DNA of 64,000 nucleotides from Flavobacterium reichenbachii (lineage in GTDB: Bacteria > Bacteroidota > Bacteroidia > Flavobacteriales > Flavobacteriaceae): the NCBI RefSeq assembly GCF_002217435.1, contig NZ_MUHF01000001.1:406530-470529 (forward strand), given 5' to 3'. Every line of letters starts with the position of its first letter. Position 1 is the stretch's first letter. Under the pieces are notes generated by a model. It had not been told where the DNA came from. It did not search any database and was given only the letters and a program-made list of their open reading frames with translations. A program made the position numbers and the translations under genes. Shown piece after piece: positions 9,439-50,445 of the stretch.

Positions 9439-9520
9439 GATTTGTATTCAATTAATATTGAAGTGCAAAATTGAATGATATTGAAGTATTAGGATTGTAC
9501 AAATGCGACAAACTTATGCA

Positions 9521-24737: not shown

Positions 24738-24877
24738 AGTTCGTAACAGCAATTATAACACATTTAGGGATTGACTTTCTGGAAAGTTTGCCTTGTATTT
24801 GTTATCAATTGATTAAATCGCAACAATAAATTTAATTTAGTTTCCAAACCCCAGTAGCGGCAACACCTTTGTTGCAA
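24738..24877 (+). repeat. Degenerate cassette recombination site
   Basis: This stretch starts CGTAACAGC, contains the conserved centre CTTGTATTTG and TTTAATTTAGT, and ends GTAGCGGCAACACC before TTTGTTGC. The order is the same as in the intact sites, but the end corresponding to AGAACGTTA is mutated. Confidence 0.65.
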
Positions 24878-28299: not shown

Positions 28300-28414
28300 G
28301 CTAACAGCTGCAACAACGGATTTGAGAAAGTTAGTTTTGTATTTGAAATGACTTTGCAGATCCGAAAATAGATTTAATTTAGTACCAAACCCACTTTAAT
28401 ACCAAAGCGTTAGC
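28300..28414 (+). repeat. Cassette recombination site (left array, well preserved)
   Basis: Runs from GCTAACAGC to GCGTTAGC (115 bases). It keeps TTTTGTATTTG and TTTAATTTAGTACC in the centre and opposed arms (CAACAACGGATTTG; CCAAACCCACTTT). It closes the lipoprotein cassette and opens the next. Confidence 0.8.
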
Positions 28415-29073: not shown

Positions 29074-29207
29074 CGCCCGCTTTCTTGCGCTAGACACGGT
29101 TTGGGACTAAATTAAGCCCTATTTTTGGATTTGCTAAATCTTCCTAAAATACAAACCCATTTTCAAATTAAGCGTAAAACCCAAATTGCTTGCAACGTGT
29201 TTTGCAG
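29074..29207 (-). repeat. Cassette recombination site in inverted orientation
   Basis: The reverse complement reads CACGTTGCAAGCAATTTGGG, a GTTTGTATTTTAGG centre, TTAGCAAATCC, GGGCTTAATTTAGTCCC and CTAGCGCAAGAAAG. This is the same order as the site at 39606-39736 but on the opposite strand. Both ends (TAAC, GTTA) are mutated. Confidence 0.75.
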
Positions 29208-37050: not shown

Positions 37051-37072
37051 AAAGGCGCTTATAAAGCGCCTT
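37051..37072 (-). terminator. Terminator overlapping the radC-like stop codon
   Basis: AAGGCGC and GCGCCTT pair around TTATAAA. On the minus strand a T run follows at once. The stop codon lies inside the loop. Confidence 0.75.
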
Positions 37073-37523
37073 CATCAGCAAAGGAGTAGTAGGATTCGGA
37101 AGTTATAATTAATGAATCCAGTAAGGTGATGTCAAGGAGCCTTCCTGCTTCTTTTACTTTTCGAGTTATCTGTTTATCGGCTTCAGAGGCTGTTAGGTTT
37201 CCTGAAGGATGATTGTGGATCATCATCAAAGATGTGGCATTTGCCTTAAGAGCTGCTGAGAATATTAATCTAAGATCTACAACAGTTCCTGCAATTCCTC
37301 CAGAAGAAATTTCGTAAATACCAAGTGCTTTATGAGCGTGATTCAAAAGCAATACTTTGAACTGCTCGAAGAATTCTATTTTATTATAATCCCAAGCTGA
37401 AAGCATTAGTATATATGCATCTTTTGAAGATTTGATTTGTGGTCTTTCAGAGTTTTTTACTTTTGTTTTGTAGATCAGTTCAATTTCAGATACAGTCTGC
37501 CAGTTTTGATTTAAAGTTTCCAT
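37059..37523 (-). CDS. RadC-family JAB/MPN protein
   Basis: The 154-residue product is the MPN (JAB1-like) domain of RadC. The metal-site motif is complete: H-N-H-P-S-G (MIHNHPSGNLTASEADKQITR) with the Ser and Asp spaced as in the family. The N-terminal helix-hairpin-helix region of long RadC is absent. Short RadC proteins of this kind are common on mobile elements of Bacteroidota. It is divergent from the recombinase gene. Confidence 0.85.
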   Translation of the reverse strand: METLNQNWQTVSEIELIYKTKVKNSERPQIKSSKDAYILMLSAWDYNKIEFFEQFKVLLLNHAHKALGIYEISSGGIAGTVVDLRLIFSAALKANATSLMMIHNHPSGNLTASEADKQITRKVKEAGRLLDITLLDSLIITSESYYSFADEGAL

Positions 37524-37913: not shown

Positions 37914-38957
37914 ATGAGATGGGAAGCCAAAATTATTACTCATAAAAAAGAAAAAAGAATTGCAGTGTATTTTGAAAAAAATGCCGAATTAATAGTTCGA
38001 ATAAAAAAGCTAACAGGTTCTCGCTGGAGTCAAACTTTGGGAGTTTGGCACCTTCCTGATACGGTTGAAAATAGAGAGCGATTTCATTTGGCACCTCCCT
38101 CTTATTCCTTACCATCAGAAGACGGCATTGAGCAAATCGAAAAATTCAAACAAATACTGCGTTCCAAACGTTACAGCGAAAACACTGTTACGACTTACAG
38201 CGAAGCCCTGAAATCTTTTTTGGTTTTCTACCGGGAGAAAGCGGTTGCCGAAATTACGAACGAAGATGTGATTGTATATAATAACGAGTATATCTTAAAG
38301 AATAATCTTTCGGCTTCTTACCAAAACCAAATCGTTAATGCTATTAAATTGTTTTTTCAAACCATTCGAGAAACCAAGATGATAGTGGATAAAATTCATC
38401 GTCCCAAAAATGCCAAAACCCTACCTAATGTTTTGAGCAAAGAGGAAGTCAAATTGATTTTGAATGCCCATAGTAACATCAAACACAAAATGATGCTTTC
38501 GCTGATATACAGTTGTGGCTTGCGCTGTGGTGAATTATTAGCGCTTAGACCTGTTCATATCGATTCTAAAAGAAATATTGTATTGCTTAAAAACTCCAAA
38601 GGGAAAAAAGACAGAATTACACCTTTATCTCCTAAAATTTTAGAAATGCTTCGGGAATACTATGTCTTATTTAAACCCACAACCTATTTGTTTGAAGGTG
38701 CAAATCCTGGTGAGCCCTATTCAGAAAAAAGTTTGCAAAGTGTATTAAAACAAGCACTCAAAAAAATTGGCATAACAAAACCTGTAACTTTACATTGGTT
38801 GCGCCATAGTTTCGCTACACATTTACTTGAAAGCGGAACTGATTTAAGGTATATTCAAGAACTATTAGGCCATCAAAGCAGTAAGACCACCGAAATTTAC
38901 ACCCATGTTAGTACGAAAAGTATTCAACAAATAAAAAGTCCGTTTGATGATTTATGA
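37914..38957 (+). CDS. Tyrosine recombinase of the cassette array (integron-integrase-like)
   Basis: This 347-residue enzyme has an extra N-terminal domain of about 60 residues (start MRWEAKIITHKKEKRIAVYF; KLTGSRWSQTLGVWHLPDT), a SAM-like core-binding domain (about 72-160) and a catalytic domain. All catalytic residues are visible: R204 (CGLRCGELLA), K231/232 (SKGKKDR), H294 and R297 (HWLRHSFATH), H320 (LLGHQS) and Y329 (IYTHV). The end IKSPFDDL is like that of IntI-type integrases. The extra helix that marks true IntI between the Lys and His-Arg motifs is not evident. It is read towards the array, with the first cassette only 102 bases away. Strand cleavage at GTTA junctions is inferred. Confidence 0.85.
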   Translation: MRWEAKIITHKKEKRIAVYFEKNAELIVRIKKLTGSRWSQTLGVWHLPDTVENRERFHLAPPSYSLPSEDGIEQIEKFKQILRSKRYSENTVTTYSEALKSFLVFYREKAVAEITNEDVIVYNNEYILKNNLSASYQNQIVNAIKLFFQTIRETKMIVDKIHRPKNAKTLPNVLSKEEVKLILNAHSNIKHKMMLSLIYSCGLRCGELLALRPVHIDSKRNIVLLKNSKGKKDRITPLSPKILEMLREYYVLFKPTTYLFEGANPGEPYSEKSLQSVLKQALKKIGITKPVTLHWLRHSFATHLLESGTDLRYIQELLGHQSSKTTEIYTHVSTKSIQQIKSPFDDL

Positions 38958-39010
38958 AATAAAAATCCTATTTTTGAAAAGAAATAATACTGACAATTGT
39001 CAGACATAGC

Positions 39011-39067
39011 GACCCAATTTGGGGTAGATAAGTCGGACGTAGTCAGACATATATACAAGTTAGCAGG
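39011..39067 (+). promoter_or_regulatory. attI-like primary site and leader, copy 4
   Basis: GACCCAATTTGGGGTAGATAAG, then GTCAGACATATATACAAGTTAGCAGG. Located between the recombinase stop and the first cassette, where an attI is expected. It lacks the palindromic arms of the cassette sites and matches the leaders at 30001, 32080 and 34085. Confidence 0.55.
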
Positions 39068-39079
39068 CATACACCAAAA

Positions 39080-39598
39080 ATGAGAATATCAAGAAAATAT
39101 AGAAGGATTGGAAATTATTTAACAGGATTGTTTTTTGTTACGATATGCTTTTTTGGAAGCTTTTTAGCATTCAAAAATGCGGAATTAAAACTGAAAGAAT
39201 TAAACTCATACACTGGAAAAATAATTGAAAAAGGAATTACTGATAGCTATTCGAGTATTAGTGGAAAAGGAAATCTTAAATTTAAAGTTTTCTATTTAAA
39301 GTTGGAAGGACTTAATCAAATTTTGGCTTCATATAATCCTAAAAAGTCTTACGGAAATCTGGATAAAAACTTAAAAATTGGAGACACAGTTAAGGTTTAT
39401 TTTAAAATGTCAAGCACCACAACTAAACCAAATTTAGCAACGTTCCAAATTGAAAAAAAGAATATAATTATTCTCAATACAAATGATTATCAATTTCGTG
39501 AAAAAATTGTTGGCTATATGGCTATATTAGGCGGATTTGTAATTATCGGAATTGCAGTTTACCAAGACAAAAAGTATTGGAAGAAAATTAGAAAATAG
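39080..39598 (+). CDS. Cassette 1: two-helix membrane protein (DUF3592-like)
   Basis: The 172-residue product has membrane helices at about 12-30 (YLTGLFFVTICFFGSFLAF) and 145-160 (GYMAILGGFVIIGIAVYQ) around a beta-rich extracytoplasmic domain. The layout resembles DUF3592 proteins. No function known. The start is 21 bases from the GTTAGC junction. Confidence 0.6.
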   Translation: MRISRKYRRIGNYLTGLFFVTICFFGSFLAFKNAELKLKELNSYTGKIIEKGITDSYSSISGKGNLKFKVFYLKLEGLNQILASYNPKKSYGNLDKNLKIGDTVKVYFKMSSTTTKPNLATFQIEKKNIIILNTNDYQFREKIVGYMAILGGFVIIGIAVYQDKKYWKKIRK

Positions 39599-39605
39599 TA
39601 CGCCT

Positions 39606-39736
39606 GCTAACACACGCTACAAGCAATTTGGGTATTTGGCTTAATGGAAAGTTGGTTTTGTATTTGTGATGATTTGGCAAATCCGAAGAATGGTCTTAAT
39701 TTAGTCCCAAACTGCTTGTAGCGCGAGAACGTTACT
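39606..39736 (+). repeat. Cassette recombination site 1
   Basis: GCTAAC to GTTACT. Arms CGCTACAAGCAATTTGGG and CCCAAACTGCTTGTAGCG pair with one mismatch. The centre holds TTTTGTATTTG. Confidence 0.9.
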
Positions 39737-39801
39737 GGCTAGTTACCAAAAAGCTGAAAACCAAAACTAAACAAGGAACAAACATCTGAAAGCGAACTAT
39801 A

Positions 39802-40635
39802 ATGGGAAAAATGAAAGATTGGCTTTTAGACATGCAAGAAAATGCAACGGAGTATGCACTTGCGAAAATTCTTGGGATATCTTATGAGGAATTAAATGAG
39901 CTAGATTATCAAATTGAAACTGACGAAAGTAAAGACGGAATAATTTATAATTACAGATTCGAATTAACTGGAAATTCACCAACACAAATTATTCAAAAAA
40001 TTAACCGCCTACAAGATGGTAAACGAGTCTATTTAGAACCATGGGAATTAGATGATGAATTTGACTATGACTTCCAATTCGAAGCCATCACTAATGACAA
40101 AAATTTCTTAAAAAAATTCCACGAAGAAATTGATAATTTGATGTCATTACTTGCAATTAAAATAGAAGAACCAAATCAAAAAAAGATATTAAACAGACAA
40201 GTATTTATTGGTATAATTGGAACAATGGAATCTTTTCTTTCTGATGTATTTATAAATTTAGTTTTCGACAATGACAATTATTTCAAAAACTTCATTAAAA
40301 CCCATCCTGAATTCAAACAACGTAAATTTGAACTACGAGAAATATTTGAGGAAACAGACAGGCTCGAGGAAACTGCCAAAAAAATTATGCTTGACACTAT
40401 TTATCATAATTTACCTGTAGTTAAAGAAATGTATGAAGACACTTTTAAAATTAAATTTCCTTCTATCAAAGAAGTTTTTAAATATGTATTTCAACGTCAT
40501 GATTTAGTACATAGAAATGGAAAAACAAAAAATGGAATAATTGTAGAGACTAACGAAGAAGCAATACAAGACTTGACAATGAAAGTGAATGAAATGATAA
40601 CTAATTTAGCGAAAGAACTAAAATTGAATAATTGA
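39802..40635 (+). CDS. Cassette 2: HEPN-like protein
   Basis: The 277-residue soluble protein is largely helical in its C-terminal half. The segment FQRHDLVHRNGKT carries R-x4-H, the metal-free RNase motif of HEPN domains, near the end of a helical bundle (about 130-275), with N following as often seen. The N-terminal part is unrecognised. HEPN proteins are frequent toxins and anti-phage effectors; here that role is inference. Confidence 0.65.
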   Translation: MGKMKDWLLDMQENATEYALAKILGISYEELNELDYQIETDESKDGIIYNYRFELTGNSPTQIIQKINRLQDGKRVYLEPWELDDEFDYDFQFEAITNDKNFLKKFHEEIDNLMSLLAIKIEEPNQKKILNRQVFIGIIGTMESFLSDVFINLVFDNDNYFKNFIKTHPEFKQRKFELREIFEETDRLEETAKKIMLDTIYHNLPVVKEMYEDTFKIKFPSIKEVFKYVFQRHDLVHRNGKTKNGIIVETNEEAIQDLTMKVNEMITNLAKELKLNN

Positions 40636-40758
40636 AAATAATACCTTGAAAATAATACCTTGAAAATTACGAGCCGAAAAGCAGAAACGTGAAAGTTGGA
40701 TTCTGCCAACAGAAGCGTGAAAATTTGCGGTTTAATTGTAATTTCGACAAAATAACCA

Positions 40759-40893
40759 GCCAGTAACACACGCTACAAGCAATTTGGGGATTTGGCATAA
40801 TGGAAAAATTGGTTTGTATTTGGATGATTTGGCAAATCCGAAAGATTACGCTTCCTTAATCCCAAACTGCTTGTAGCGCGAGAACGTTATGGG
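40759..40893 (+). repeat. Cassette recombination site 2
   Basis: GCCAGTAAC to GTTATGGG. Arms CGCTACAAGCAATTTGGGG and CCCAAACTGCTTGTAGCG; centre TTTGTATTTGG. Confidence 0.9.
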
Positions 40894-40943
40894 TTATTGC
40901 AAAAAATAAAATCGTACAAAAAATTAGAAACAGTAGAAATAAT

Positions 40944-41861
40944 ATGAAAAAAAATATTTTAGTTTTATTAATTACATTATTTAGTTGTGATTTATTGTCT
41001 CAAAGTGTAATTGCAACAGTTAATAGTGGTTCACATTTAATTTTGACTACAGATTGGTCAAAATTTAATAATGTGAACCTAATGATCGAAAAAGTAGATG
41101 GAACTAAAAGTAAATCTTATCTTTTTTCAACTTCTAGACCTATTAACCCCACTGCTATGTATGTAGATGGGCTACAAGATGATTTTGAACAAGGTTCATT
41201 GGTAAAAGTATATATTCTAAAACCAAAAATAAGTGGAATTATATCTAATCAAATACTAGCAACAGTCAATAGTGGTTCACATTTAGAGAAGGCAACTGAT
41301 TGGTCTGTTTATAGTAATAAAAATATACTTGTAGAGGAAGTCAATGGAATGAACCAGAATGTATATAAATATTCAAGTTCGAGACCTACTAATCCGAATG
41401 CAATGTTAGTAACAGGTTTAGAAAATGCATACGGACAAGGAACAAATGTTTATGTATACATAATTGAAGATGTTAATTTCTTGAACAATAACATGGGAAT
41501 TGGAACAAATACTCCATCATATAAACTTGATGTCTGTGGAACAATTAGAGCACAGGAAGTAAAGGTTGATTTACAAGGAACCTGTGTGCCTGATTTCGTA
41601 TTCAAAAATGATTACAAACTTATGGATTTAAACACATTGGAAAAGTTTGTAAAAACTAACCAGCACTTACCTGAAATATCTCCTGAAAATGAAATGATTG
41701 AGAATGGACTCAATATAAAAGAGTTTCAGATGAAATTGTTACAAAAAATGGAAGAAATGACTTTGTATGTAATTGAGCAAAATAAAAAGAACGAGAAACA
41801 GGAGCAAAAAATAAAAATACTGGAAGCTGAAATTAAGAAAATAAAATCTACTAAAAGATAA
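40944..41861 (+). CDS. Cassette 3: tail-fibre-like exported repeat protein
   Basis: The 305-residue product has a signal peptide (NILVLLITLFSCDLLSQ) and two tandem repeats of about 75 residues, each opening ATVNSGSHL and containing SRP-x-NP-x-AM. The C-terminus is that of phage-fibre-like proteins: MGIGTNTPSYKLDVCGTIRA, then a final long coiled coil. This end resembles intramolecular-chaperone tails common in Bacteroidota surface proteins. Probably surface-exposed. Confidence 0.7.
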   Translation: MKKNILVLLITLFSCDLLSQSVIATVNSGSHLILTTDWSKFNNVNLMIEKVDGTKSKSYLFSTSRPINPTAMYVDGLQDDFEQGSLVKVYILKPKISGIISNQILATVNSGSHLEKATDWSVYSNKNILVEEVNGMNQNVYKYSSSRPTNPNAMLVTGLENAYGQGTNVYVYIIEDVNFLNNNMGIGTNTPSYKLDVCGTIRAQEVKVDLQGTCVPDFVFKNDYKLMDLNTLEKFVKTNQHLPEISPENEMIENGLNIKEFQMKLLQKMEEMTLYVIEQNKKNEKQEQKIKILEAEIKKIKSTKR

Positions 41862-41877
41862 GGATTGTCAAGCAACA

Positions 41878-42014
41878 ACCCATAACAGCTAGTAAGCAAT
41901 AGTCGGGAATCAGGCTTAATGGAAAAATGGTTTTGTATTTGGGAAAATAGTGATAATCCGAAAAAATTGTCTTTACTTAACCCGACCATCGCCTACTAGC
42001 AAGACGTTACCAGC
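41878..42014 (+). repeat. Cassette recombination site 3
   Basis: ACCCATAAC to GTTACCAGC. Arms GCTAGTAAGCAATAGTCGGG and CCCGACCATCGCCTACTAGC; centre TTTTGTATTTGGG. Confidence 0.9.
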
Positions 42015-42037
42015 AAGCCAACAAAACGAAAGAAGTA

Positions 42038-42514
42038 ATGACAAGAATAATATTGACAATAGCTGTTTTGCTTTTTAACTGTTTGACTTTTTCTCAGACG
42101 GCAAAAAAAGAGAATTACGCATTGATAATCATAAAAGGAAAAGTTATAAACGAAAACAAGCAAAGATTTTTGATAACTCCTACTACTCTTACCAACAATA
42201 CTAAAGAAACATTGAAATATTACAGTATGTCTTGTTCTTGGCAAGACTTTTATTCTGTTGATAGTAAAGAATTACAAGTTGATGGACAAGATTGTGACAA
42301 AAATATCCCGATAATTTTGACACTTGCACCAGGAGAATCAAAAACAGTAGAAATTAGGTTATTAATGAATCGGACAATTGATGCTTCTGAAATAAAATTC
42401 AAAATCGGATTCAACTTAATGAAAGTATCTAACACTCAAAAAGAATTTGACTTTGACTTCAATGAACAGCAGAAAAAGAAAAACATAATTTGGTCAAACA
42501 TAATTTCAAGATAA
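42038..42514 (+). CDS. Cassette 4: exported hypothetical protein
   Basis: The 158-residue product has a signal peptide (MTRIILTIAVLLFNCLTFSQ) and a single beta-sandwich-like domain. CSWQDFYSV and LTLAPGESKTVEIRLLMN look like an immunoglobulin-type fold. No function recognised. Confidence 0.6.
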   Translation: MTRIILTIAVLLFNCLTFSQTAKKENYALIIIKGKVINENKQRFLITPTTLTNNTKETLKYYSMSCSWQDFYSVDSKELQVDGQDCDKNIPIILTLAPGESKTVEIRLLMNRTIDASEIKFKIGFNLMKVSNTQKEFDFDFNEQQKKKNIIWSNIISR

Positions 42515-42529
42515 ATGAACAAATGGCCA

Positions 42530-42664
42530 GCTGGTAACAGCCACTACAACGGATTTGGGCATTTGGCTTAATGGAAAAATGGATTTGTATTTGGGATGAT
42601 TTGGCAAATCCGAAGAATGGGCTTAATTTAGTCCCAAACCCGCTGTAGTGCCAGAACGTTAGCA
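42530..42664 (+). repeat. Cassette recombination site 4
   Basis: GCTGGTAAC to GTTAGCA. Arms CCACTACAACGGATTTGGG and CCCAAACCCGCTGTAGTG; every mismatch is A on the left against C on the right. Confidence 0.9.
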
Positions 42665-42681
42665 GAAATACTTTTAGAACT

Positions 42682-43917
42682 ATGGTACAAATTAGCTTCT
42701 ATTTTGAAAAGCAAATGAATACACTAATCGAATATTTGAAAAATATTAAACACCCAATTTTTAAATTAGCCTGGACATTAGTTGGTTTAGGTTGTCTAGT
42801 AATAAGCTATTTATGTGTAAGATCCCTTTTTTTTACTTGGATTTGGGGTGGAGAATTAGATTTCGCTTTGACTGGACAAGTTGGTGATTTTATTGGAGGT
42901 GTTGCTGGAACATTCTTTGCACTTTCTGGTACATTACTCATATTTTTATCTTTTAAAGAACAAACAAAGCAAAATAAAAGAGAAGCTTTTGAAACAGCCT
43001 TTTTTCAAATGCTAAATCTCCATCGAGCAAATGTTAGCGAAATGAGTTATACAAAATTTGAAAATGGAGAACTACAAAAATCTGAACATCGAAAAGTTTT
43101 TAGGCTTATACACCAAGAATTCATAGAATGTTATAAAGAAGTTAGAAAATTCTCTAACTCCAAAGATTTTGATTATTACCTAACACGAAAACATAAAAAC
43201 AAGCTTCAAAATTTAATTAATCAAAATAACATTGGAGCAAACGTTTTGGATATGGCTTTTATAGATATTGCCTATACAATTATCTATTATGGTTTGGGTG
43301 AAGAAGGTGAAATTATAATCAGAGATAAATTTAAAAGAAAATATAAGGATACATTTTTTTATCCATTGCTAACATATATAAAATTAAAACCAAAAAAAGA
43401 GAGCAAAAAAAGGTGGCAAAAATGGGAACATTTAAATAAGTTAGAATACAAAGTTTTTAAAAAAGCTAATGAAGAATTTTATGATTACAAGAAACACAAA
43501 AATGAAGAAAAACTTTCCGATGATTCATCCTATCTTGTAATTAAAAAAGACTATTATAAATATTACGGAGGTCATCAACACAGATTAGGTCACTATTTTA
43601 GACATTTATTTCAAAGTTTCAAATACGTAAATTATCATGAATATTTATCTGACAAAGAAAAATATTTCTATGCTAAAACACTTCGAGCTCAACTTTCCAC
43701 ATATGAGCAGGCAGTAATATTTACAAATAGTATTTCAAATCTGGGATGGAAATGGGAATTTAATCCTGAAATAGAACTTTTAAAATCTGGGGAATCCGCA
43801 AAAGAATCCAAACTGATTACCAAATTTAATGTTATTAAAAATTTACCTGGAAATCACTTTTATGATATAACTTTCAACAAATATTATCCTAACGTAAAAT
43901 TTGAAAGAGAAGAATAA
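42682..43917 (+). CDS. Cassette 5: putative phage abortive infection protein (putAbiC-type)
   Basis: The 411-residue protein has two membrane helices near the N-terminus (FKLAWTLVGLGCLVISYL; FIGGVAGTFFALSGTLLIFL). A cytoplasmic segment starts SFKEQTKQNKREAFETAFFQML, followed by LHRANVSEM. This is the familiar layout of the putative phage abortive infection family (putAbiC). A late H-Y-F-R-H-L-F-Q and YEQAVIFTNSISN complete the pattern. A defence role rests on family naming only. An internal methionine 11 could also be the start. Confidence 0.75.
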   Translation: MVQISFYFEKQMNTLIEYLKNIKHPIFKLAWTLVGLGCLVISYLCVRSLFFTWIWGGELDFALTGQVGDFIGGVAGTFFALSGTLLIFLSFKEQTKQNKREAFETAFFQMLNLHRANVSEMSYTKFENGELQKSEHRKVFRLIHQEFIECYKEVRKFSNSKDFDYYLTRKHKNKLQNLINQNNIGANVLDMAFIDIAYTIIYYGLGEEGEIIIRDKFKRKYKDTFFYPLLTYIKLKPKKESKKRWQKWEHLNKLEYKVFKKANEEFYDYKKHKNEEKLSDDSSYLVIKKDYYKYYGGHQHRLGHYFRHLFQSFKYVNYHEYLSDKEKYFYAKTLRAQLSTYEQAVIFTNSISNLGWKWEFNPEIELLKSGESAKESKLITKFNVIKNLPGNHFYDITFNKYYPNVKFEREE

Positions 43918-43922
43918 GTACT

Positions 43923-44059
43923 TCTGCTAACAGCCGTTTGGTGCGATTGGGGTTTTAGGCTGAATTTAAAGATGGTTTTGTATTTGGAAAATTTGTGTTT
44001 AACCGAAAAATCTCGCATCTTTAATCCCCAACCTCGCCAAGCGCCAGAACGTTATACCA
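43923..44059 (+). repeat. Cassette recombination site 5 (arm type II)
   Basis: TCTGCTAAC to GTTATACCA. Arms CCGTTTGGTGCGATTGGGG and CCCCAACCTCGCCAAGCG; centre TTTTGTATTTGG conserved although the arms differ from type I. Confidence 0.9.
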
Positions 44060-44081
44060 CATTTTAAACGCGTAACTGCAA

Positions 44082-44588
44082 ATGGAAGAAATAGCAGAAC
44101 AAAGATTAATAATAGATATTGACCTTAGGCCAAATGTAGACGATGTTTACACAGGAAAATGCCTTGTGGCAAACTCTGAAATAGTTATGCTTCTAAATTT
44201 TGATGAAGAAAACGGAAATTTTGACGGATATACTATTGTGAAAAATAGTGACGTTGAAAAATATCGAACTTGGGAAGAAAAAGATTTTGGAGAATTGAAA
44301 AATGACAATTCAGAAAGTTTGGTAGCTAACATTAATTTGAATGACTTTACAGATTTAGAAAAATCATTGAAAAGCTTAGTTTCCGAGATAGTTTCAATTT
44401 TTGCCTATGATGATGAAGATTCATTTCTTGTTGGTAAAATATTATGGGCTACAAATGATTCAGTTGAATTACATTTAATTGACGAAGATTCGAATTGGAG
44501 TGAAAACGAAATTATTAAACTAAGTGATATTAGTTATCTTGGTTTTGATACAGAATACGAAAGAGAAATAAAGAAAAACGCGGTATAA
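44082..44588 (+). CDS. Cassette 6: hypothetical acidic protein
   Basis: The 168-residue product is very acidic and soluble. It seems to contain an internal duplication of a small beta-domain (DVYTGKCLVANSEIVMLLNFDEENG and DSFLVGKILWATNDSVELHLIDEDS). No known family. Confidence 0.6.
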   Translation: MEEIAEQRLIIDIDLRPNVDDVYTGKCLVANSEIVMLLNFDEENGNFDGYTIVKNSDVEKYRTWEEKDFGELKNDNSESLVANINLNDFTDLEKSLKSLVSEIVSIFAYDDEDSFLVGKILWATNDSVELHLIDEDSNWSENEIIKLSDISYLGFDTEYEREIKKNAV

Positions 44589-44717
44589 CAGCTACTACAA
44601 CGGATTTTGGCAATAGTCTTACCGGAAAGTTGGCCTTGTATTTGGGATGATTTGGCAAATCCGAAGAATGGGTTTAATTTAGTCTCAAACCCGCTGTAGT
44701 ACCAGAACGTTAGCGAT
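44582..44717 (+). repeat. Cassette recombination site 6
   Basis: GGTATAAC to GTTAGCGAT; arms CTACTACAACGGATTTTGG and CTCAAACCCGCTGTAGTA; centre CTTGTATTTGGG. The site overlaps the last codons of the gene. Confidence 0.9.
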
Positions 44718-44733
44718 AATAACCTACAGAAAT

Positions 44734-45069
44734 ATGAAAAATCAAGATATAATAAATGCTTTGAACAAAATAGTCAATCAGAACTATCACTTTTCTGATT
44801 ATGATGTACAAAATATTATATCAGAACGTCGAAATATTCTAATTGATACGTACAAAAACTTTGCTGAAAATTTATTGGGAAAATTGGCTCAAGAAAAAAG
44901 CGTAGAAGAGATAAATAGTTACATAAGTGATTATGTAATTAAACTAAATACAAAGTTATATTCCAAAAACGAATATGAAGTTTTATTATTGAAAATTAAC
45001 GAGATATCATATTGGATTTTTGGAAATAGTTTCCCTTTGGATTACTATAATGAGAAGAACAATGTGTGA
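44734..45069 (+). CDS. Cassette 7: small hypothetical protein
   Basis: The 111-residue product is all-helical by composition (MKNQDIINALNKIVNQ...), soluble, no motif recognised. Confidence 0.55.
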   Translation: MKNQDIINALNKIVNQNYHFSDYDVQNIISERRNILIDTYKNFAENLLGKLAQEKSVEEINSYISDYVIKLNTKLYSKNEYEVLLLKINEISYWIFGNSFPLDYYNEKNNV

Positions 45070-45076
45070 AGTTACT

Positions 45077-45213
45077 ATCGCTAACAGGCACTACAACGGA
45101 TTTGGGCATTTGGCTTAATGAAAAAATGGTCTTGTATTTGGGATGATTTGGCAAATCCGAAAATATGGCTTAATTTAATCCCAAACCAGCTGTAGTGCCA
45201 GAACGTTATGCCT
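45077..45213 (+). repeat. Cassette recombination site 7
   Basis: ATCGCTAAC to GTTATGCCT; arms GCACTACAACGGATTTGGG and CCCAAACCAGCTGTAGTGC; centre CTTGTATTTGGG. Confidence 0.9.
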
Positions 45214-45273
45214 CAGTTCAACCGAACTGAGGCTGAAAAAGAAACGTTTTTCATAATACTTAAATTTTAAAGG

Positions 45274-45507
45274 ATGGATAATGAACAAATAATACATGAA
45301 TTTTTGTTAAAATTTAAAGGGTTCAAAAAAGGAGCTAAAATGCATTTAACAGATACTATCAGACGAGATATCGTAAAAAATTTACGCTTTAATACTGACG
45401 ATGCAATAAATTCTATTTTGAATAGCGGATATTTCAAATTAGAAATGCACGATTCAGTTAGCCTTACAGACGAAGGTTTTGAATACGCAAATCAGACTCA
45501 CTACTAA
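45274..45507 (+). CDS. Cassette 8, first gene: small hypothetical protein
   Basis: The 77-residue product (MDNEQIIHEFLLKFKGFKKG...) is probably a small winged-helix: RRDIVKNLRFNTDDAINSILNSGYFKLE, then SLTDEGFEYANQ as the wing. A DNA-binding role is tentative. Shares its cassette with the gene at 45678. Confidence 0.5.
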   Translation: MDNEQIIHEFLLKFKGFKKGAKMHLTDTIRRDIVKNLRFNTDDAINSILNSGYFKLEMHDSVSLTDEGFEYANQTHY

Positions 45508-45677
45508 AAACTTGTTTGCCTTTAATTACGATATAAGAAGAAACATCTTCCTTCGCTTTTAATAGTTCAATTGTATCGTTGTAAACGTCATCATTTGGGG
45601 CAATTACAATTACTGTTGAAAAATCAAATTTCTGTATTATAAAAAAGTATTCTAGCATAATAATTAAAATTTTAAAT

Positions 45678-45974
45678 ATGAATAATGAAATAAAAACGAG
45701 CGACAATATCGCAGGTTCAATACGTTTAATTGGTAGTTTAATATTAATTGGTGGAATCGTCCTTTTAGGAATATCACAAATTATGGAAATAAATGTTGAA
45801 CCTAATTCGGAAAATATGAATGCTGAAACATTACTTGAACTCCCTAAAAAAATTGCAGACAAAACTAACTTTACTCTATTAGGAGGATTATTAATTATTG
45901 TTGGTTTGCAATTATCTTTCATATCAAACCAAGTAATTGCAGAAATCAAAGAACAATTTAAAAAGTCGTTATAA
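45678..45974 (+). CDS. Cassette 8, second gene: two-helix membrane protein
   Basis: The 98-residue product has two helices (SIRLIGSLILIGGIVLLGISQI and FTLLGGLLIIVGLQLSFI) separated by a short loop. No family known. The only cassette here with two genes. Confidence 0.55.
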   Translation: MNNEIKTSDNIAGSIRLIGSLILIGGIVLLGISQIMEINVEPNSENMNAETLLELPKKIADKTNFTLLGGLLIIVGLQLSFISNQVIAEIKEQFKKSL

Positions 45975-46002
45975 AAAACGATTCTGCTAAATAAAGAACC
46001 GA

Positions 46003-46139
46003 AGGCATAACAGCCACTACAACGGATTTGGGCATTGGGCTTAATGGAAAGATGGTCTTGTACTTGGGATGATTTGGCAAATCCGAAAATAGGACTTAAT
46101 TTAACCCCAAACCCGCTGTAGTGCCAGAACGTTAGCCGT
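46003..46139 (+). repeat. Cassette recombination site 8
   Basis: AGGCATAAC to GTTAGCCGT; arms CCACTACAACGGATTTGGG and CCCAAACCCGCTGTAGTG; centre CTTGTACTTGGG. Confidence 0.9.
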
Positions 46140-46174
46140 CACTTTATGACCGACCGAGAACACAACAAGAAATT

Positions 46175-46684
46175 ATGAATATAACAGAACTTATAAACTT
46201 AATCAAGCAGGACGAGAACTGCGAAGTCAGACCTGCGAATAAGGAAATTGCTTTACCGACAAATATTCCTGACGACTTAAAAGAGTTTTACGAATTAACA
46301 GACGGAATTAAATTGTTTGAAAGCGAACCATACGGAATAACGATTGTAGGACGAGAAGAATTTATTCCGACAAATAAATACTTGTATCCAAAGGACGATG
46401 TTATTTGGGAAGAACTTGAAGGCGAAGTTTGCAACGAATGGTATTTAATGGCAAAGATTGATGAAATGAGCCAATATATTAGTATCGATTTGACAAACGA
46501 ACGAAATGGACAATGTTATGACAGTTTCTATGAAACCCATTCGCTACAAGGCGACTCAGCCATTGTTGCGAAAAATTTTACTGAATTATTGACAAAACTC
46601 TATCACAATAAAGGGCAACATTGGTATTGGTTACAAGACGACTTTAAAAAATTAGGAGATGCTTATGACGAACCAATAATATAA
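46175..46684 (+). CDS. Cassette 9: SMI1/KNR4 (SUKH) family protein
   Basis: The 169-residue protein has the SUKH pattern: LPTNIPDDLKEFYELTDGIKLF near the N-terminus, an E-P-Y-G-I-x-I-V-G strand and a final FTELLTKLYHNKGQHWYW helix. In bacteria such proteins often neutralise contact-dependent or polymorphic toxins. No toxin gene is alongside, so this would be an orphan immunity gene. Base composition is slightly richer in GC than its neighbours. Confidence 0.75.
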   Translation: MNITELINLIKQDENCEVRPANKEIALPTNIPDDLKEFYELTDGIKLFESEPYGITIVGREEFIPTNKYLYPKDDVIWEELEGEVCNEWYLMAKIDEMSQYISIDLTNERNGQCYDSFYETHSLQGDSAIVAKNFTELLTKLYHNKGQHWYWLQDDFKKLGDAYDEPII

Positions 46685-46712
46685 AATCCAATTTCGGTGG
46701 ACAAAAAAGCGA

Positions 46713-46849
46713 ACGGCTAACAAGGGTTTTGCGTCAGGCGGGCTGAAATGCAAAATTCAACGGCAGTAATTCTATTAAATTTTAGTAATAATATCAACTT
46801 TTGTGCTTCGATTTCCCGCCCGAACGCAAAGCCCCGAAACGTTACCAGC
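46713..46849 (+). repeat. Cassette recombination site 9 (arm type III)
   Basis: ACGGCTAAC to GTTACCAGC; arms AGGGTTTTGCGTCAGGCGGG and CCCGCCCGAACGCAAAGCCCC. The only intact site without the TTGTATTTG centre. Confidence 0.85.
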
Positions 46850-46905
46850 AATTGCACAAAAACAGGAAGAATTCAAGAACCGAATCAACAAATAACCGAA
46901 ATAAT

Positions 46906-47394
46906 ATGGATGAAAATCTCATCGATGCCCTTTTAAACGATATTCAAAACAAACCTGAATATATACTAGAAGAATCGGATATAGTGCGTAATGGCGCTAC
47001 ACAAATACAATATCGGGAAATTGTCAGTTTCCTATGCGAAAATGATTTCATAAGACAGCCTTTTAAAAATCATGGAAAATTGACTATTTTGGAAAAAGGC
47101 AAGGAAGTTTTGAAGTTAGGAGGTTGGCAAAAATATTTACTTAAAGAACAGCAAACTAAGGAACAAACTGCACAAAAGGCAATTTATGACGCACGAATCT
47201 CTAAATTTCAGGCAAGATACGGAAAATATGCATTACCAATTTCTGCGATATCACTTTTAGTCGCAATTGGATCGTTGCTTACTGGAATATTAATGTACCA
47301 ATCCAGAATAAAAGAACTTGAGATTAATCAAGAAAAGCTGAAAAATAAAATTGAAAAAATTGACTCTGTGAAAAATAATATTAAACAGAAATAA
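46906..47394 (+). CDS. Cassette 10: membrane-anchored hypothetical protein
   Basis: I choose the ATG at 46906 (MDENLIDALLNDIQNKPEYI), since the longer frame begins inside site 9. The 162-residue product has an N-terminal winged-helix-like part (about 1-75), then one or two helices (YALPISAISLLVAIGSLLTGILMY) and a C-terminal coiled coil. A signalling or toxin-like anchored protein is possible; unknown. Confidence 0.55.
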   Translation: MDENLIDALLNDIQNKPEYILEESDIVRNGATQIQYREIVSFLCENDFIRQPFKNHGKLTILEKGKEVLKLGGWQKYLLKEQQTKEQTAQKAIYDARISKFQARYGKYALPISAISLLVAIGSLLTGILMYQSRIKELEINQEKLKNKIEKIDSVKNNIKQK

Positions 47395-47406
47395 CCAATA
47401 GTAACT

Positions 47407-47543
47407 GCTGGTAACAGCCGTTTGGCGAGATTGGGGTTTTAGGCTGAATTTAAAGATAGTTTTGTATTTGGAAATTTTGTGTTTAACCGAAAATTCTCGC
47501 ATCTTTATTCCCCAACCTCGCCAAGCGCCAGAACGTTACCTGC
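47407..47543 (+). repeat. Cassette recombination site 10 (arm type II)
   Basis: GCTGGTAAC to GTTACCTGC; arms CCGTTTGGCGAGATTGGGG and CCCCAACCTCGCCAAGCG; centre TTTTGTATTTGG. Confidence 0.9.
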
Positions 47544-47569
47544 AATTTAAACAACACTTATCCTTAATT

Positions 47570-48190
47570 ATGAACAAATCATTACTATTTTTTTTTCTGA
47601 TTTCATTAAAATTATATTGCCAAGACTTTGAAGGGAAAGTTGAATATAAAATTTCATATAAAGTCATTTCTACTAAAGAAAATGAAGTCAATCTAAAAAA
47701 AGATTTAGGGACGAAAACTACATTTATAGTTAAAAACGGATTTTACAAAGAGATAACCGATGCAGAATATATGAACTATCAATTGTACAATCCAAAAGAG
47801 AATAGACTATACTTTACAGACAAGTTTACACCGAAGACATTATATTTTTATAGAGGTCAAAAATTACCCAATACGAAAGTTGAATACAAGATTATTAAAA
47901 ATGCCGAAACAATTTTAGGGCATATTTGTGATGTCCTTATCTATAAAACTGACAAATATGAAATAGCTTTATATTATTCAAAAGATTTAAAGCTCAATCC
48001 AGAATATTTTAAGAATTTCACTTATTTGAATAGAAATAAAAAAGCACAAATAATGAAATCCATTTGGTTGAAACAAATAATTACCACCAAGGATTACGTT
48101 GCGACATTAAAAGCTTCCAAAATAATATTCGCAAAAATTAGTGATAGTGAATTTATTAAACCTCAATACGATCTCTTGAAAGAACAATAA
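47570..48190 (+). CDS. Cassette 11: exported hypothetical protein (GLPGLI-like)
   Basis: The start at 47570 gives signal peptide MNKSLLFFFLISLKLYCQ; the longer frame begins inside site 10. The 206-residue product has an N-terminal DFEGKVEYKISYKV, common in GLPGLI/DUF4412-type exported proteins of Bacteroidota, and a beta-rich body (ILGHICDVLIYKTDKYEIALYY). Confidence 0.6.
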   Translation: MNKSLLFFFLISLKLYCQDFEGKVEYKISYKVISTKENEVNLKKDLGTKTTFIVKNGFYKEITDAEYMNYQLYNPKENRLYFTDKFTPKTLYFYRGQKLPNTKVEYKIIKNAETILGHICDVLIYKTDKYEIALYYSKDLKLNPEYFKNFTYLNRNKKAQIMKSIWLKQIITTKDYVATLKASKIIFAKISDSEFIKPQYDLLKEQ

Positions 48191-48193
48191 ACT

Positions 48194-48332
48194 GCAGGTA
48201 ACACTTGCTACAAGAGATTTGGGCATTTGGCTTAATTTGGAAAATGGTTTGTATTTGTGAGAATTTTTGTTAAACCGAAAAATAACGCTAATTTTAGTCC
48301 CAAACCACTTGTAGTAAGGGTACGTTAGCGGT
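48194..48332 (+). repeat. Cassette recombination site 11
   Basis: GCAGGTAAC to GTTAGCGGT; arms TTGCTACAAGAGATTTGGG and CCCAAACCACTTGTAGTAAG; centre TTTGTATTTG. Confidence 0.9.
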
Positions 48333-48379
48333 AATTTTGCCTCCGAAAAGACCGAAAAGAGAAAAAAACCAATTGAATA

Positions 48380-49009
48380 ATGAAAAAAATATTAATCATA
48401 ACTATTTTAAGCACAGTTCTACTTTGGATAATAAATATTTTCTCTTACTATTTATTAAACTATCCAAATGAATTAGACATTTTGAAAATCATAAAAGAAA
48501 ATGTTGAATGGAAACCTTTACTTTTGATTTATTTAGCTTTAATTTTCATTTCAATTATATCAAGTTTCTTGTTTTTTAAAAATCGAACATTCCTAAATAA
48601 ATTTTGCAGAATTATGATTGCCTTTAACATAATTGGAATGATAATTATGAGTGTAATTGGACTTAATCGATTTATAGAAAATAAGAAATATTTTGACGAA
48701 ATTTTGACTGAGTTTAGAAAAAAAGCTGAAAAAGACATAAAAAATGATGATGTAAAAACTTTTGGTTTTGGATTATCATTACCTCCTAAAAATAAAATTC
48801 AAGAAATAGAAAAAGTAAAAACAGATAGTATTTTGAAAATCTACGGACTGAAAGTTAAAAATCTTGGCTGTAGTATAACGCCAGAATTAACAAAAGCATC
48901 TGAAGAGTACGAAAAAATAACTGAAGTTTATCTAACAAAAAGAAATGGAAAAGGTTGGAGAATGAAAATGGAAAACGAAATACAAAACGTAAATAAAAAC
49001 TACCGCTAA
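48380..49009 (+). CDS. Cassette 12: membrane protein of unknown function
   Basis: The 209-residue product has three helices in its first 105 residues (ILSTVLLWIINIFSYYLL; LLLIYLALIFISIISSFLF; IMIAFNIIGMIIMSVIGL), then a soluble helical tail. No family recognised. Confidence 0.55.
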   Translation: MKKILIITILSTVLLWIINIFSYYLLNYPNELDILKIIKENVEWKPLLLIYLALIFISIISSFLFFKNRTFLNKFCRIMIAFNIIGMIIMSVIGLNRFIENKKYFDEILTEFRKKAEKDIKNDDVKTFGFGLSLPPKNKIQEIEKVKTDSILKIYGLKVKNLGCSITPELTKASEEYEKITEVYLTKRNGKGWRMKMENEIQNVNKNYR

Positions 49010-49138
49010 CAGCCGTTTGGCGTGATTGGGGTTTTAGGTTGAATTTAAAGATGGTTTTGTATTTGGAAAATTTGTGTTTAACCGAAAGATCTCGCATATT
49101 TATCCCCCAACCACGCCAAGCGCGAGAACGTTAGCTGT
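49002..49138 (+). repeat. Cassette recombination site 12 (arm type II)
   Basis: ACCGCTAAC to GTTAGCTGT; arms CCGTTTGGCGTGATTGGGG and CCCCCAACCACGCCAAGCG; centre TTTTGTATTTGG. Confidence 0.9.
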
Positions 49139-49162
49139 TATTTTAAACAAAAGAAAATCTAA

Positions 49163-49290
49163 ATGGAACATAAATTTAATGATTGGGCAATGTATCTAAA
49201 TGTTTGCGCTTCATATAGTGAAACATTTCGACAAGAGATGGCTGTACAACTTCTTGAAGAATTTTATAGATTGTTAGAATTTGAATCCCC
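49163..49290 (+). pseudogene. Cassette 13 gene, truncated by island repeat
   Basis: The frame opens MEHKFNDWAMYLNVCASYSE, a plausible protein start 33 bases after the GTTAGC junction. After about 42 codons it runs into the GC-rich island repeat at 49288, where coding sense is lost. The rest of the cassette and its site are gone. Confidence 0.6.
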
Positions 49291-49393
49291 CTGCTGGCGC
49301 GAGCGTCCCGCTCGTGAACGCAACGAGATGATAAACACAGTTAAACCAAAAAAGCTCCAGATTTCTCTGAAGCTTTTGTCTTAGTAGCGGGAA
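49288..49393. repeat. Perfect 106-bp direct repeat, left copy
   Basis: Identical to 50340-50445. It contains a CGAGCG-TCC-CGCTCG hairpin, the AGCTCCAGA/TCTGAAGCT terminator and the last 9 bases of tRNA-fMet (TAGCGGGAA). It is followed by GCATTCAATTATCTAACC. Confidence 0.95.
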
Positions 49394-49531: not shown

Positions 49532-50311
49532 ATGGAAATAATAATAAGAAAATCATATTTTTTTTGGGATGGTGACGCATACAAGTATGGAGGATTCGGA
49601 GAAATAATTGATAAATGTTTTTCTGTTTCTGAGGCTGAAATTTTAATTGAAAAGCTAAGCATTGATTTTTTGAGACATATCAATCCTCTTATTAAAGATT
49701 ATGTTTTTTCAAATAATAATTATGATAAAGATGTTGAACTAATTGAAAAGGTAACTGTTTTTTTTAAACAGGAATTTCAATTAGACTTCAAAACTGAGTT
49801 TTGGTTACCAGCAAGGGCAACTGATAAACAGGTGTTGGAATTATCAAAGCTTTTTCCATTCCCTTTTTACTCAATAATTGAAAAAGTTAATGACACTTTT
49901 TACATAAATGAACTTAATGATGCATTCTGGAGTGAGAGTGAAATAATTGGAATAAAAAAATCTGAGTGGGATTTTACAAATATTTGTCTAGGAATGAAAG
50001 GGCAAATAAAACACCTTTACAATGATATTGAAATTGCTAAAAAAGACGCAACTAAAAGATTGCTTTCGAATGTTATGCGCGAAAGTAATCATCAACTTTT
50101 TAGCAAACTTACAAATTTGAAAGAACTACAATTTGTACAAGAATGGCACAATGAAATTGATTACTATGCTGAAATTTTACCTAACAATATGCAGAGTAAA
50201 AAGACAGGAGAAGTTATTGCAAAAATTAAAAACATTGTTAATGTGGAAGATGTTTTTCAAACCAAAGAAATTTCATTTGAAGAGGCAATATCATTTGAAG
50301 AAATTCCATAA
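49532..50311 (+). CDS. Hypothetical protein, cargo of the innermost tRNA insertion
   Basis: The 259-residue soluble protein (MEIIIRKSYFFWDGDAYKYG...) has a two-part alpha/beta body with no motif I recognise; the acidic tail repeats SFEEAISFEE. It is the sole gene between the perfect 106-bp direct repeats, so it arrived with, or as, the most recent insertion. Confidence 0.6.
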   Translation: MEIIIRKSYFFWDGDAYKYGGFGEIIDKCFSVSEAEILIEKLSIDFLRHINPLIKDYVFSNNNYDKDVELIEKVTVFFKQEFQLDFKTEFWLPARATDKQVLELSKLFPFPFYSIIEKVNDTFYINELNDAFWSESEIIGIKKSEWDFTNICLGMKGQIKHLYNDIEIAKKDATKRLLSNVMRESNHQLFSKLTNLKELQFVQEWHNEIDYYAEILPNNMQSKKTGEVIAKIKNIVNVEDVFQTKEISFEEAISFEEIP

Positions 50312-50339: not shown

Positions 50340-50445
50340 CCCCTGCTGGCGCGAGCGTCCCGCTCGTGAACGCAACGAGATGATAAACACAGTTAAACCA
50401 AAAAAGCTCCAGATTTCTCTGAAGCTTTTGTCTTAGTAGCGGGAA
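50340..50445. repeat. Perfect 106-bp direct repeat, right copy
   Basis: The copy attached to the functional tRNA-fMet gene; see 49288-49393. Confidence 0.95.
50405..50430 (-). terminator. Terminator of tRNA-fMet
   Basis: AGCTCCAGA and TCTGAAGCT form an imperfect eight- to nine-pair stem flanked by A and T runs, directly downstream of the tRNA on the minus strand. It is duplicated at each island junction. Confidence 0.75.

Follow-up and report, generated by a model that had tools for sequence, protein, structure and literature searches.

A probable integron-like cassette platform with its own class of tyrosine recombinase in Flavobacterium reichenbachii, and its link to tet(X)

Main finding

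The stretch of DNA analysed here (the window; 64,000 nucleotides of Flavobacterium reichenbachii, assembly GCF_002217435.1, contig NZ_MUHF01000001.1, positions 406,530 to 470,529) contains an array of gene cassettes downstream of a tyrosine recombinase gene, which we regard with high confidence as an integron-like platform consisting of a recombinase of its own class, an attI-like point, and twelve cassettes each closed by a foldable site. An earlier note made from the letters of the window (the original prediction) had described twelve whole cassettes and a truncated thirteenth, all on the strand of the recombinase gene; all are present and all lie on the + strand. Each cassette was said to hold one or two genes, and eleven have one clear gene while cassette 8 has two. 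The sites run from TAAC to GTTA as described, but measure 126-129 nucleotides (nt) rather than 131-139, a difference that may come from the placement of the ends. The proposal of an integron-like array with its own recombinase is favoured by circle-type pairing, cassette-precise duplication and sharing, a separate recombinase clade, and syntenic stretches of five relatives in which neither recombinase nor site was found. Spread through the phylum, a conserved A in both arms of the site, and tet(X) among the cassettes go beyond that proposal.

The system would function in the manner of an integron. Of the features by which integrons are defined it lacks two, namely the IntI domain and the GTTRRRY core; in layout, folding and circle signature it agrees with integrons wherever these could be tested. 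From the sequences we infer that the platform recombines cassettes, which were likely moved as circles by the recombinase, itself predicted to cut within GTT. On balance we lean, with modest confidence, towards a wider proposition: that, side by side with IntI integrons, there is an integron system peculiar to Bacteroidota in which a separate recombinase class reads, through a HARP-like domain, a mismatched A in both site arms, and that this phylum-wide system of hundreds of cassettes first made tet(X) (tigecycline resistance) a mobile cassette. The features of the platform, in window coordinates with cassettes listed by their open reading frame (ORF) and site, are as follows.

37914-38957, +, tyrosine recombinase of 347 amino acids, with a (weakly) HARP-like N-terminal domain at about residues 1-60, a SAM-like core-binding domain and a catalytic domain
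38943-38976, +, predicted promoter for the cassettes: TTTG at 38943-38946, within the SPFD codons, then a spacer of 22 nt and TATTTTTG at 38969-38976; pattern TTTG-N18-24-TAnnTTTG
38989-39049, +, leader ahead of attI, in which a motif particular to each locus (here GTCAGAC/GTCGGAC) recurs in alternating orientation, found by eye and by inverted 6-mer count
39050-39062, +, attI-like insertion point TATATACAAGTTA, with GTTA at 39059-39062; pattern TA-N(3-7)-AGTTR
39059-39734, +, cassette 1: ORF 39080-39598; site 39608-39734
39731-40889, +, cassette 2: ORF 39802-40635; site 40764-40889
40886-42009, +, cassette 3: ORF 40944-41861; site 41883-42009
42006-42661, +, cassette 4: ORF 42038-42514; site 42535-42661
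42658-44054, +, cassette 5: ORF 42682-43917 (putAbiC, PF16872); site 43928-44054
44051-44712, +, cassette 6: ORF 44082-44588; site 44586-44712
44709-45208, +, cassette 7: ORF 44734-45069 (weak PADLOC match, PDC-S19); site 45082-45208
45205-46134, +, cassette 8: ORFs 45274-45507 and 45678-45974; site 46008-46134
46131-46844, +, cassette 9: ORF 46175-46684 (SUKH, SMI1/KNR4); site 46718-46844, with a different loop sequence and the same stems
46841-47538, +, cassette 10: ORF 46906-47394; site 47412-47538
47535-48327, +, cassette 11: ORF 47570-48190; site 48199-48327
48324-49133, +, cassette 12: ORF 48380-49009; site 49007-49133
49130-49287, +, cassette 13, truncated where it meets a 106-nt repeat (49288-49393, identical to 50340-50445) that ends in a tRNA-Met gene

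Circle signature and point of exchange

Sites were collected with two covariance models, R1 built from the window sites and R2 built from 120 R1 matches. From lists of 185 and 152 matches the best 150 each were taken, and of these 300 the 274 with YAAC/GTTR ends and a length of at least 91 nt were kept as a catalogue. Cassettes were defined as segments bounded by two catalogued sites 150-2500 nt apart, which gave 199.

The first bases of each cassette had been said to pair with the bases ahead of its own site. In the window, none of 200,000 permutations of the tails reached the observed own-head/own-tail pairing, with cassette 1 (head GCAGGCATAC, tail complement GCAGGCGTAC) scored one base out of register and hence against the claim. 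The 199 cassettes agree: positions 1-6 pair in 98, 95, 94, 95, 90 and 66%, positions 8-11 in 86, 80, 80 and 77%, with background values beyond, and position 7 pairs in just 1% because the head base there is always A. The head of the next cassette, which is the physical neighbour of the site, pairs over the same six positions in 30-58% (265 sites). In 185 cassettes five or six of these positions are paired, as compared with a mean of 11.4 and a maximum of 22 in shuffles. The outer arm of each site is completed over about 11 positions by the first bases of its own cassette, as expected if the cassette had been closed into a circle at GTT.

In 193/199 cases the R of the GTTR in front of a cassette is complementary to the Y of the YAAC that opens the same cassette's site, whereas R and Y within one site vary independently. 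The base preceding GTT is C in 271 of the 274 sites and A in 76 attI-like points, the search pattern applied to the 82 loci having itself required that A. Thus R goes along with the cassette, the base in front of GTT is left behind in the site or attI, and the exchange is bracketed to GTT.

Structure and folding of the sites

The palindromic site of the original prediction is backed by covariation: among the twelve window sites, 13 of the 21 stem pairs have changed on both sides, and the proposed stems pair in 94.8% of cells as compared with 31.7-41.7% after a shift of the partner by one to three columns. When six window sites were folded singly as DNA, two proved clearly more stable than shuffled sequences (z below -3) and the other four did not (z of -1.8 to -0.1).

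Each arm, read outward from the central spacer, consists of 10-11 positions followed by a conserved A. For the outer arm this is position 7 of the cassette head, which is A in 199/199 cassettes and lies opposite C in 152, G in 40, A in five and T in two. For the inner arm, A lies opposite C in 228 of 266 distinct sites, and in 33 it faces A, T or G. The two arms thus have in common a conserved A that is nearly always unpaired. An A-against-C mismatch turns into G against T on the complementary strand, so that the two strands differ and the bottom strand folds better. Folding with DNA parameters of the circle form, for which 193 of the 199 cassettes were used, gave means of -29.95 kcal/mol for the bottom strand and -25.51 kcal/mol for the top; the bottom strand was more stable by more than 0.5 in 177, the top strand in six, and the two were within 0.5 in ten. 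With the head of another cassette the bottom-strand mean falls to -22.0.

The recombinase and its relatives

The original prediction was confirmed on three points about the recombinase: it has an extra domain at the N terminus, it lacks the IntI helix, and it is read towards the array. Its catalytic domain has R, K, HxxR, H and Y all intact, and the IntI additional domain is absent. The distance from the Arg patch to HxLRH is 91-92 in 79 of 80 recombinases of this kind, with one unparsed, versus 133-134 in 25 of 31 IntI, with six unparsed. The integron integrase profile, one of the checks suggested at the outset, matches at 207.6 bits, below its cut-off of 265 (TIGR02249); the best NCBIfam match is NF040815 with 218.7 bits and a cut-off of 220. 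A C-terminal SP-D ending is common to these recombinases and IntI.

A tree was computed from 48 of the 81 recombinases (the window and 47 of 80 loci), 14 of 30 Bacteroidota IntI, and IntI2. The 48 recombinases and the 15 IntI form separate groups with support of 100/99 each, so that the phylogeny called for in the original prediction places the window recombinase in a clade apart from IntI; it also falls outside the clade of host XerC/XerD. The canonical IntI of Bacteroidota are a different clade from the present recombinases. Two further Xer-like proteins with 29-30% identity are encoded in the window genome. A relative of the recombinase, at 97%, is from Flavobacterium sp. 245 (P0001); no such recombinase was found in the 60 relatives searched, where the best other match was 83%. 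Relatives also occur in metagenome-assembled genomes labelled Azoarcus and Ignavibacteria (L097, L076), by transfer or wrong binning.

The N-terminal domain of ten recombinases gave no match above the cut-off in a Pfam search. The HARP domain of SMARCAL1 (PDB 4o66) is its top match by both Foldseek and profile search, both weak, and the identity of the domain as HARP-like is weakly supported. A single-sequence AlphaFold model of the whole recombinase was poor (mean predicted local distance difference test score, pLDDT, 46.6) and was not used.

Promoter, leader and attI-like point

The pattern TTTG-N18-24-TAnnTTTG, whose TTTG/TAnnTTTG elements are the Bacteroidota-type promoter consensus, was found in 42 of 82 loci versus 0.055 expected in shuffles, and in 35 loci its TTTG is at the identical place in the SPFD codons. 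The promoter is predicted to read from the end of the recombinase gene into the first cassettes. In the leader that follows, an exact inverted 6-mer recurs in 29 of 76 loci versus 1.08 expected in shuffles; the motif copies could be binding sites or RNA hairpins, both being possible. The motifs vary by locus (TTTCGC, TCAGAC, TCATAC, TAGCG and others), alternate in orientation, and differ even between close recombinases. The pattern TA-N(3-7)-AGTTR was found 78-169 nt past the recombinase stop in 76/82 loci, mostly at 93-108 nt, and the head-tail pairing of the first cassette suggests that this attI-like point serves for insertion.

Movement of cassettes

In one single-contig chromosome (G045), three cassettes occur in three copies each, one of them with two copies in tandem, and a fourth occurs in two copies. 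The copies are 99.8-100% identical over their whole length and have otherwise different neighbours, and such identical cassettes at several places point to recent movement. Between genera, F. taihuense (G030) and Pelobium manganitolerans (L079) have a cassette in common, with 92.0% likeness over 1311 columns; the sites that belong to it are 78.5% alike, the preceding sites 54.7% and the next 300 bases 33.3%, and the flanks are unrelated.

The same genes in the same order in all related strains, which according to the original prediction would speak against mobility, were not seen where this was examined: in 298 other genomes of the genus, the best match to cassette 5 was 68% over 905 of 1266 bases and other matches were shorter. 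At the syntenic era/tRNA-Met locus of five relatives of the same genus, no recombinase was found by tblastn and no site by R2 in the stretches examined, two of which end with their contig 4-6 kb from the tRNA. One of the five has a stretch of 55-58 nt that resembles the middle of a site.

Further arrays are located on other contigs of the window genome, and one of them adjoins a broken recombinase end. On that contig (C4; L005 and L165) there appears to be a second, decayed platform, with the broken recombinase end, the attI-like sequence tatatacaagtt, and sites on the - strand.

Distribution of recombinase and sites

The loci surveyed were the best 80 of at least 559 recombinase relatives. 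Near these 80 genes, 118 of 120 R1 sites lie downstream on the strand of the gene, 680,370 bases upstream and 321,569 bases downstream having been searched; sites were found in 25 of 27 loci with at least 5 kb of downstream sequence and in 40 of 54 with at least 1 kb. With R2 at an expectation value (E) of at most 0.1, 177 of 185 matches are downstream on the recombinase strand (81 sources, with L095 and L097 left out). A recombinase relative with sites is also located on a Chryseobacterium plasmid.

Counts of site-bearing genomes are lower bounds, up to 57 candidates per genome having been scored in the genus and up to 11 in the phylum. Among 61 genomes of the same genus, R1 sites (E<=1e-3) occur in at least 53 and a recombinase relative (E<=1e-40) in 33; by the scored candidates, 30 have both, 23 sites only and three a relative only. 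Arrays without a recombinase relative may therefore in part be moved in trans or be fossils. Across the phylum, the counts of sites, recombinases and IntI were taken as one draw of 296 genomes. The recombinase (E<=1e-50) was found in 91, and by scored candidates 73 have both, 18 the recombinase only, 51 sites only and 154 neither. Sites thus occur in 73 of 91 recombinase-bearing genomes versus 51 of 205 others (Fisher p 3e-19, relatedness not corrected). Canonical IntI above the cut-off is present in 84 of the 296, and sites are rarer in the genomes of the IntI list (23/86) than in others (101/210). R2 sites (E<=1e-6) are present in at least 124 of the 296 sampled genomes, yet the recombinase would escape a survey that selects intI by its additional domain or patch.

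Such a survey of 2008 picked intI by its additional domain or the intI patch (PMC2426708), and would miss the present recombinase because of that selection. Reviews name Bacteroidota among the integron-bearing phyla (PMC8618304, PMC9668308). No description of the present system was found in the literature searched on integrons and on tet(X)/XerD, from which most subscription journals and all preprints were outside.

Comparison with known systems

The chromosomal integrons of Vibrio are an example of a system of IntI, attI and attC. Integrons and the present system have in common a recombinase gene, an adjacent insertion point and a same-strand cassette array, folded sites completed by the first bases of their own cassette with exchange inside GTT, a bottom strand that folds better (as is known for attC), and the occurrence of arrays without a recombinase. 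They differ in that the present recombinase is outside the IntI clade, lacks the additional domain, has an extra N-terminal domain, and is read towards the array, although this orientation is also found in some integrons. The arms are GTTR N6 A N4 here and GTTRRRY in attC, whose core consensus is GTTRRRY / RYYYAAC; these cores were found in 13 of 273 and 11 of 269 present sites, respectively. A mismatched A stands here in contrast to the extrahelical bases of attC, and site length is 117-129 nt in 259/274 catalogued sites, being 126 or 127 in 180.

XerA-type proteins (NF040815, 'site-specific tyrosine recombinase/integron integrase') resemble the recombinase in being its best NCBIfam match, and a plasmid-borne relative bears that product name; however, Pyrococcus XerA groups with Xer in the tree (with long branches), and XerA is not known to have a cassette array.

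Proposed mechanism and alternative explanations

The array would be built and shuffled as cassettes enter at attI, are excised between sites, or are captured from other places. Two protomers of the recombinase may bind the folded strand: the first would sit on the outer arm (GTTR N6 A N4) and the second on the inner arm, where the target would be about 11 bp, A against C, and 6 bp. Because its placement is alike in the two arms, the mismatched A would stand in for the extrahelical bases of attC and would be read by the N-terminal HARP-like domain, and the promoter at the end of the recombinase gene would drive the first cassettes. If so, this is a second, separate solution to the integron problem, from which the essentials of site folding and strand choice could be learned.

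Several observations weigh against this reading. The outer A faces G in 40/199 cassettes rather than C (152), and the inner pair would be A-T in 14/266 distinct sites. The matches of the N-terminal domain to HARP have E of 0.67 (Foldseek) and 0.017 (profile), and VIA-align places other folds ahead of HARP. The promoter pattern is confined to 42 of the 82 loci, and 14 of the 54 loci with at least 1 kb downstream have no site by R1. Eight of the 185 R2 matches are outside the downstream stretch, three of them upstream of the recombinase in the window. Lastly, sites without a recombinase relative in 23/61 genomes of the genus are accompanied by three genomes with a relative and no site.

It is improbable that the array is a conventional integron, with the same layout, whose IntI has diverged and whose sites are plain attC. 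The phylum does have bona fide IntI (84/296 genomes above the cut-off), TIGR02249 does give 207.6 bits, and the SP-D ending is common to both kinds of protein; but that score is below the cut-off, the additional domain is absent by the measured motif distances, and the recombinases and IntI form separate groups with support of 100/99 each. The attC core is present in few of the sites in either orientation, and the sites are rarer in IntI genomes. We give about the same small weight, or slightly more, to the possibility that the cassettes were once mobile and are now fixed or moved by host XerC/XerD, the recombinase being a relic. Genomes that have sites and no recombinase and the truncated recombinase end, with a stop, beside the array on contig C4 of the window genome speak for this, whereas the window recombinase is intact with all catalytic residues, site position follows the recombinase gene, and cassettes 100% identical are found at several places in one chromosome.

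That the repeats are terminators or elements resembling repetitive extragenic palindromic (REP) sequences or miniature inverted-repeat transposable elements (MITE), with the recombinase a mere neighbour, appears very improbable. The sites are intergenic hairpins, and the window array is in a region with repeated copies of a tRNA-Met flank; yet such elements would not pair head to tail with their own cassette instead of the neighbour, with an R-Y pairing that spans the whole gene, nor account for cassette-precise repeats and sharing or for sites on one strand downstream of the recombinase. The integron-like platform remains the preferred explanation.

tet(X) as a cassette

When plasmids were searched with the recombinase, a C-terminal 'XerD' fragment with 52% identity to residues 127-347 was found beside tet(X3) of Acinetobacter. 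Genome G553, of the same class as the window, has a complete cassette between two R2 sites that encodes a protein with 86% identity to Tet(X3), with head GTTATGTGCCATTTTTG and tail AAAACGGCACATAAC paired at 6/6 positions and then A against C; the next cassette encodes a protein of small multidrug-resistance type, as judged from its sequence. In a plasmid of Bacteroides fragilis, tet(X2) has a site of its own behind it, the head pairs at 5/6 positions, and an R2 site ends 180 bases before the gene; by eye only, a further site-like arm adjoins the tet(X2) head. This site also lies behind tet(X) in plasmids of Empedobacter and Riemerella, and of these two Empedobacter alone has the full head. E. 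coli tet(X4) has 22 bases after the stop in common with the Bacteroides, Empedobacter and Riemerella versions and then diverges.

The cassette head of tet(X3) in Acinetobacter is that of G553, its tail pairs at 3/6 of the first positions, the site is unrecognised by R2, and the insertion point before it is off consensus, with T and not A before GTT. This element, xerD-tet(X3), resembles the present system in that 'xerD' is a fragment related to the present recombinase and is followed by tet(X3) with the G553 head; it differs in that the recombinase is only a fragment, insertion point and site are off consensus, and ISVsa3 moves the element onward (PMC9784759). A paper on Flavobacteriaceae as the source of tet(X) records xerD-tet(X3) without the words integron or cassette in its main text (PMC7494873), and the word integron is likewise absent from the searched main text of PMC9784759.

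If tet(X) was a cassette with this kind of site, the known linkage of xerD and tet(X3) would be explained. Since tet(X) sits in the same kind of package in other bacteria, the system likely aided its spread, and tet(X) may first have been mobilised by it. What results is a concrete explanation of how xerD and tet(X3) came to be linked, and a route by which tet(X) could have gained mobility. The position of tet(X) beside intI1 on an E. coli plasmid was considered as a capture by a class 1 integron and no claim is made from it; the intervening DNA resembles what we take to be an ordinary 3'-conserved-segment. The window has a Tet(X)-like monooxygenase gene of its own at 8317-9444 (-) (C1:414846-415973), 58% identical to Tet(X3), and no site was found beside it in the stretch examined.

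Cassette contents

PADLOC gave one weak match among ten window cassette proteins. For 144 cassette proteins surveyed across loci, Pfam matched 86 families at E<=1e-5, of which 13 recur in two or three proteins and the others are represented once; they include restriction enzymes, MerT, GNAT and SUKH. PADLOC matches among the surveyed proteins were to restriction-modification, GajA/Old-like and candidate systems. The catalogue of cassettes thereby gained includes restriction, GajA/Old-like and metal-transport genes.

Other features of the region

A RadC-like JAB-domain gene is located upstream of the recombinase gene at 37059-37523 (-), divergent from it. Three weaker R2 matches upstream of the recombinase, at 24744-24870 (+), 28302-28412 (+) and 29082-29197 (-), are stray or decayed sites. 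The unit that interrupts cassette 13 is 1052 bp long, has one ORF (49532-50311), and is bounded at tRNA-Met by the 106-nt repeat in two identical copies. The 3' flank of tRNA-Met recurs within 17400-50510 of the window, at about 17.4, 29.7, 33.1, 33.9, 35.3, 36.5, 36.9, 49.35 and 50.4 kb. The region from tRNA-Glu (17447) to tRNA-Met (50436) resembles an island formed by successive insertions, and the same interval in three relatives is 0.2 kb, 9 kb and 13 kb long.

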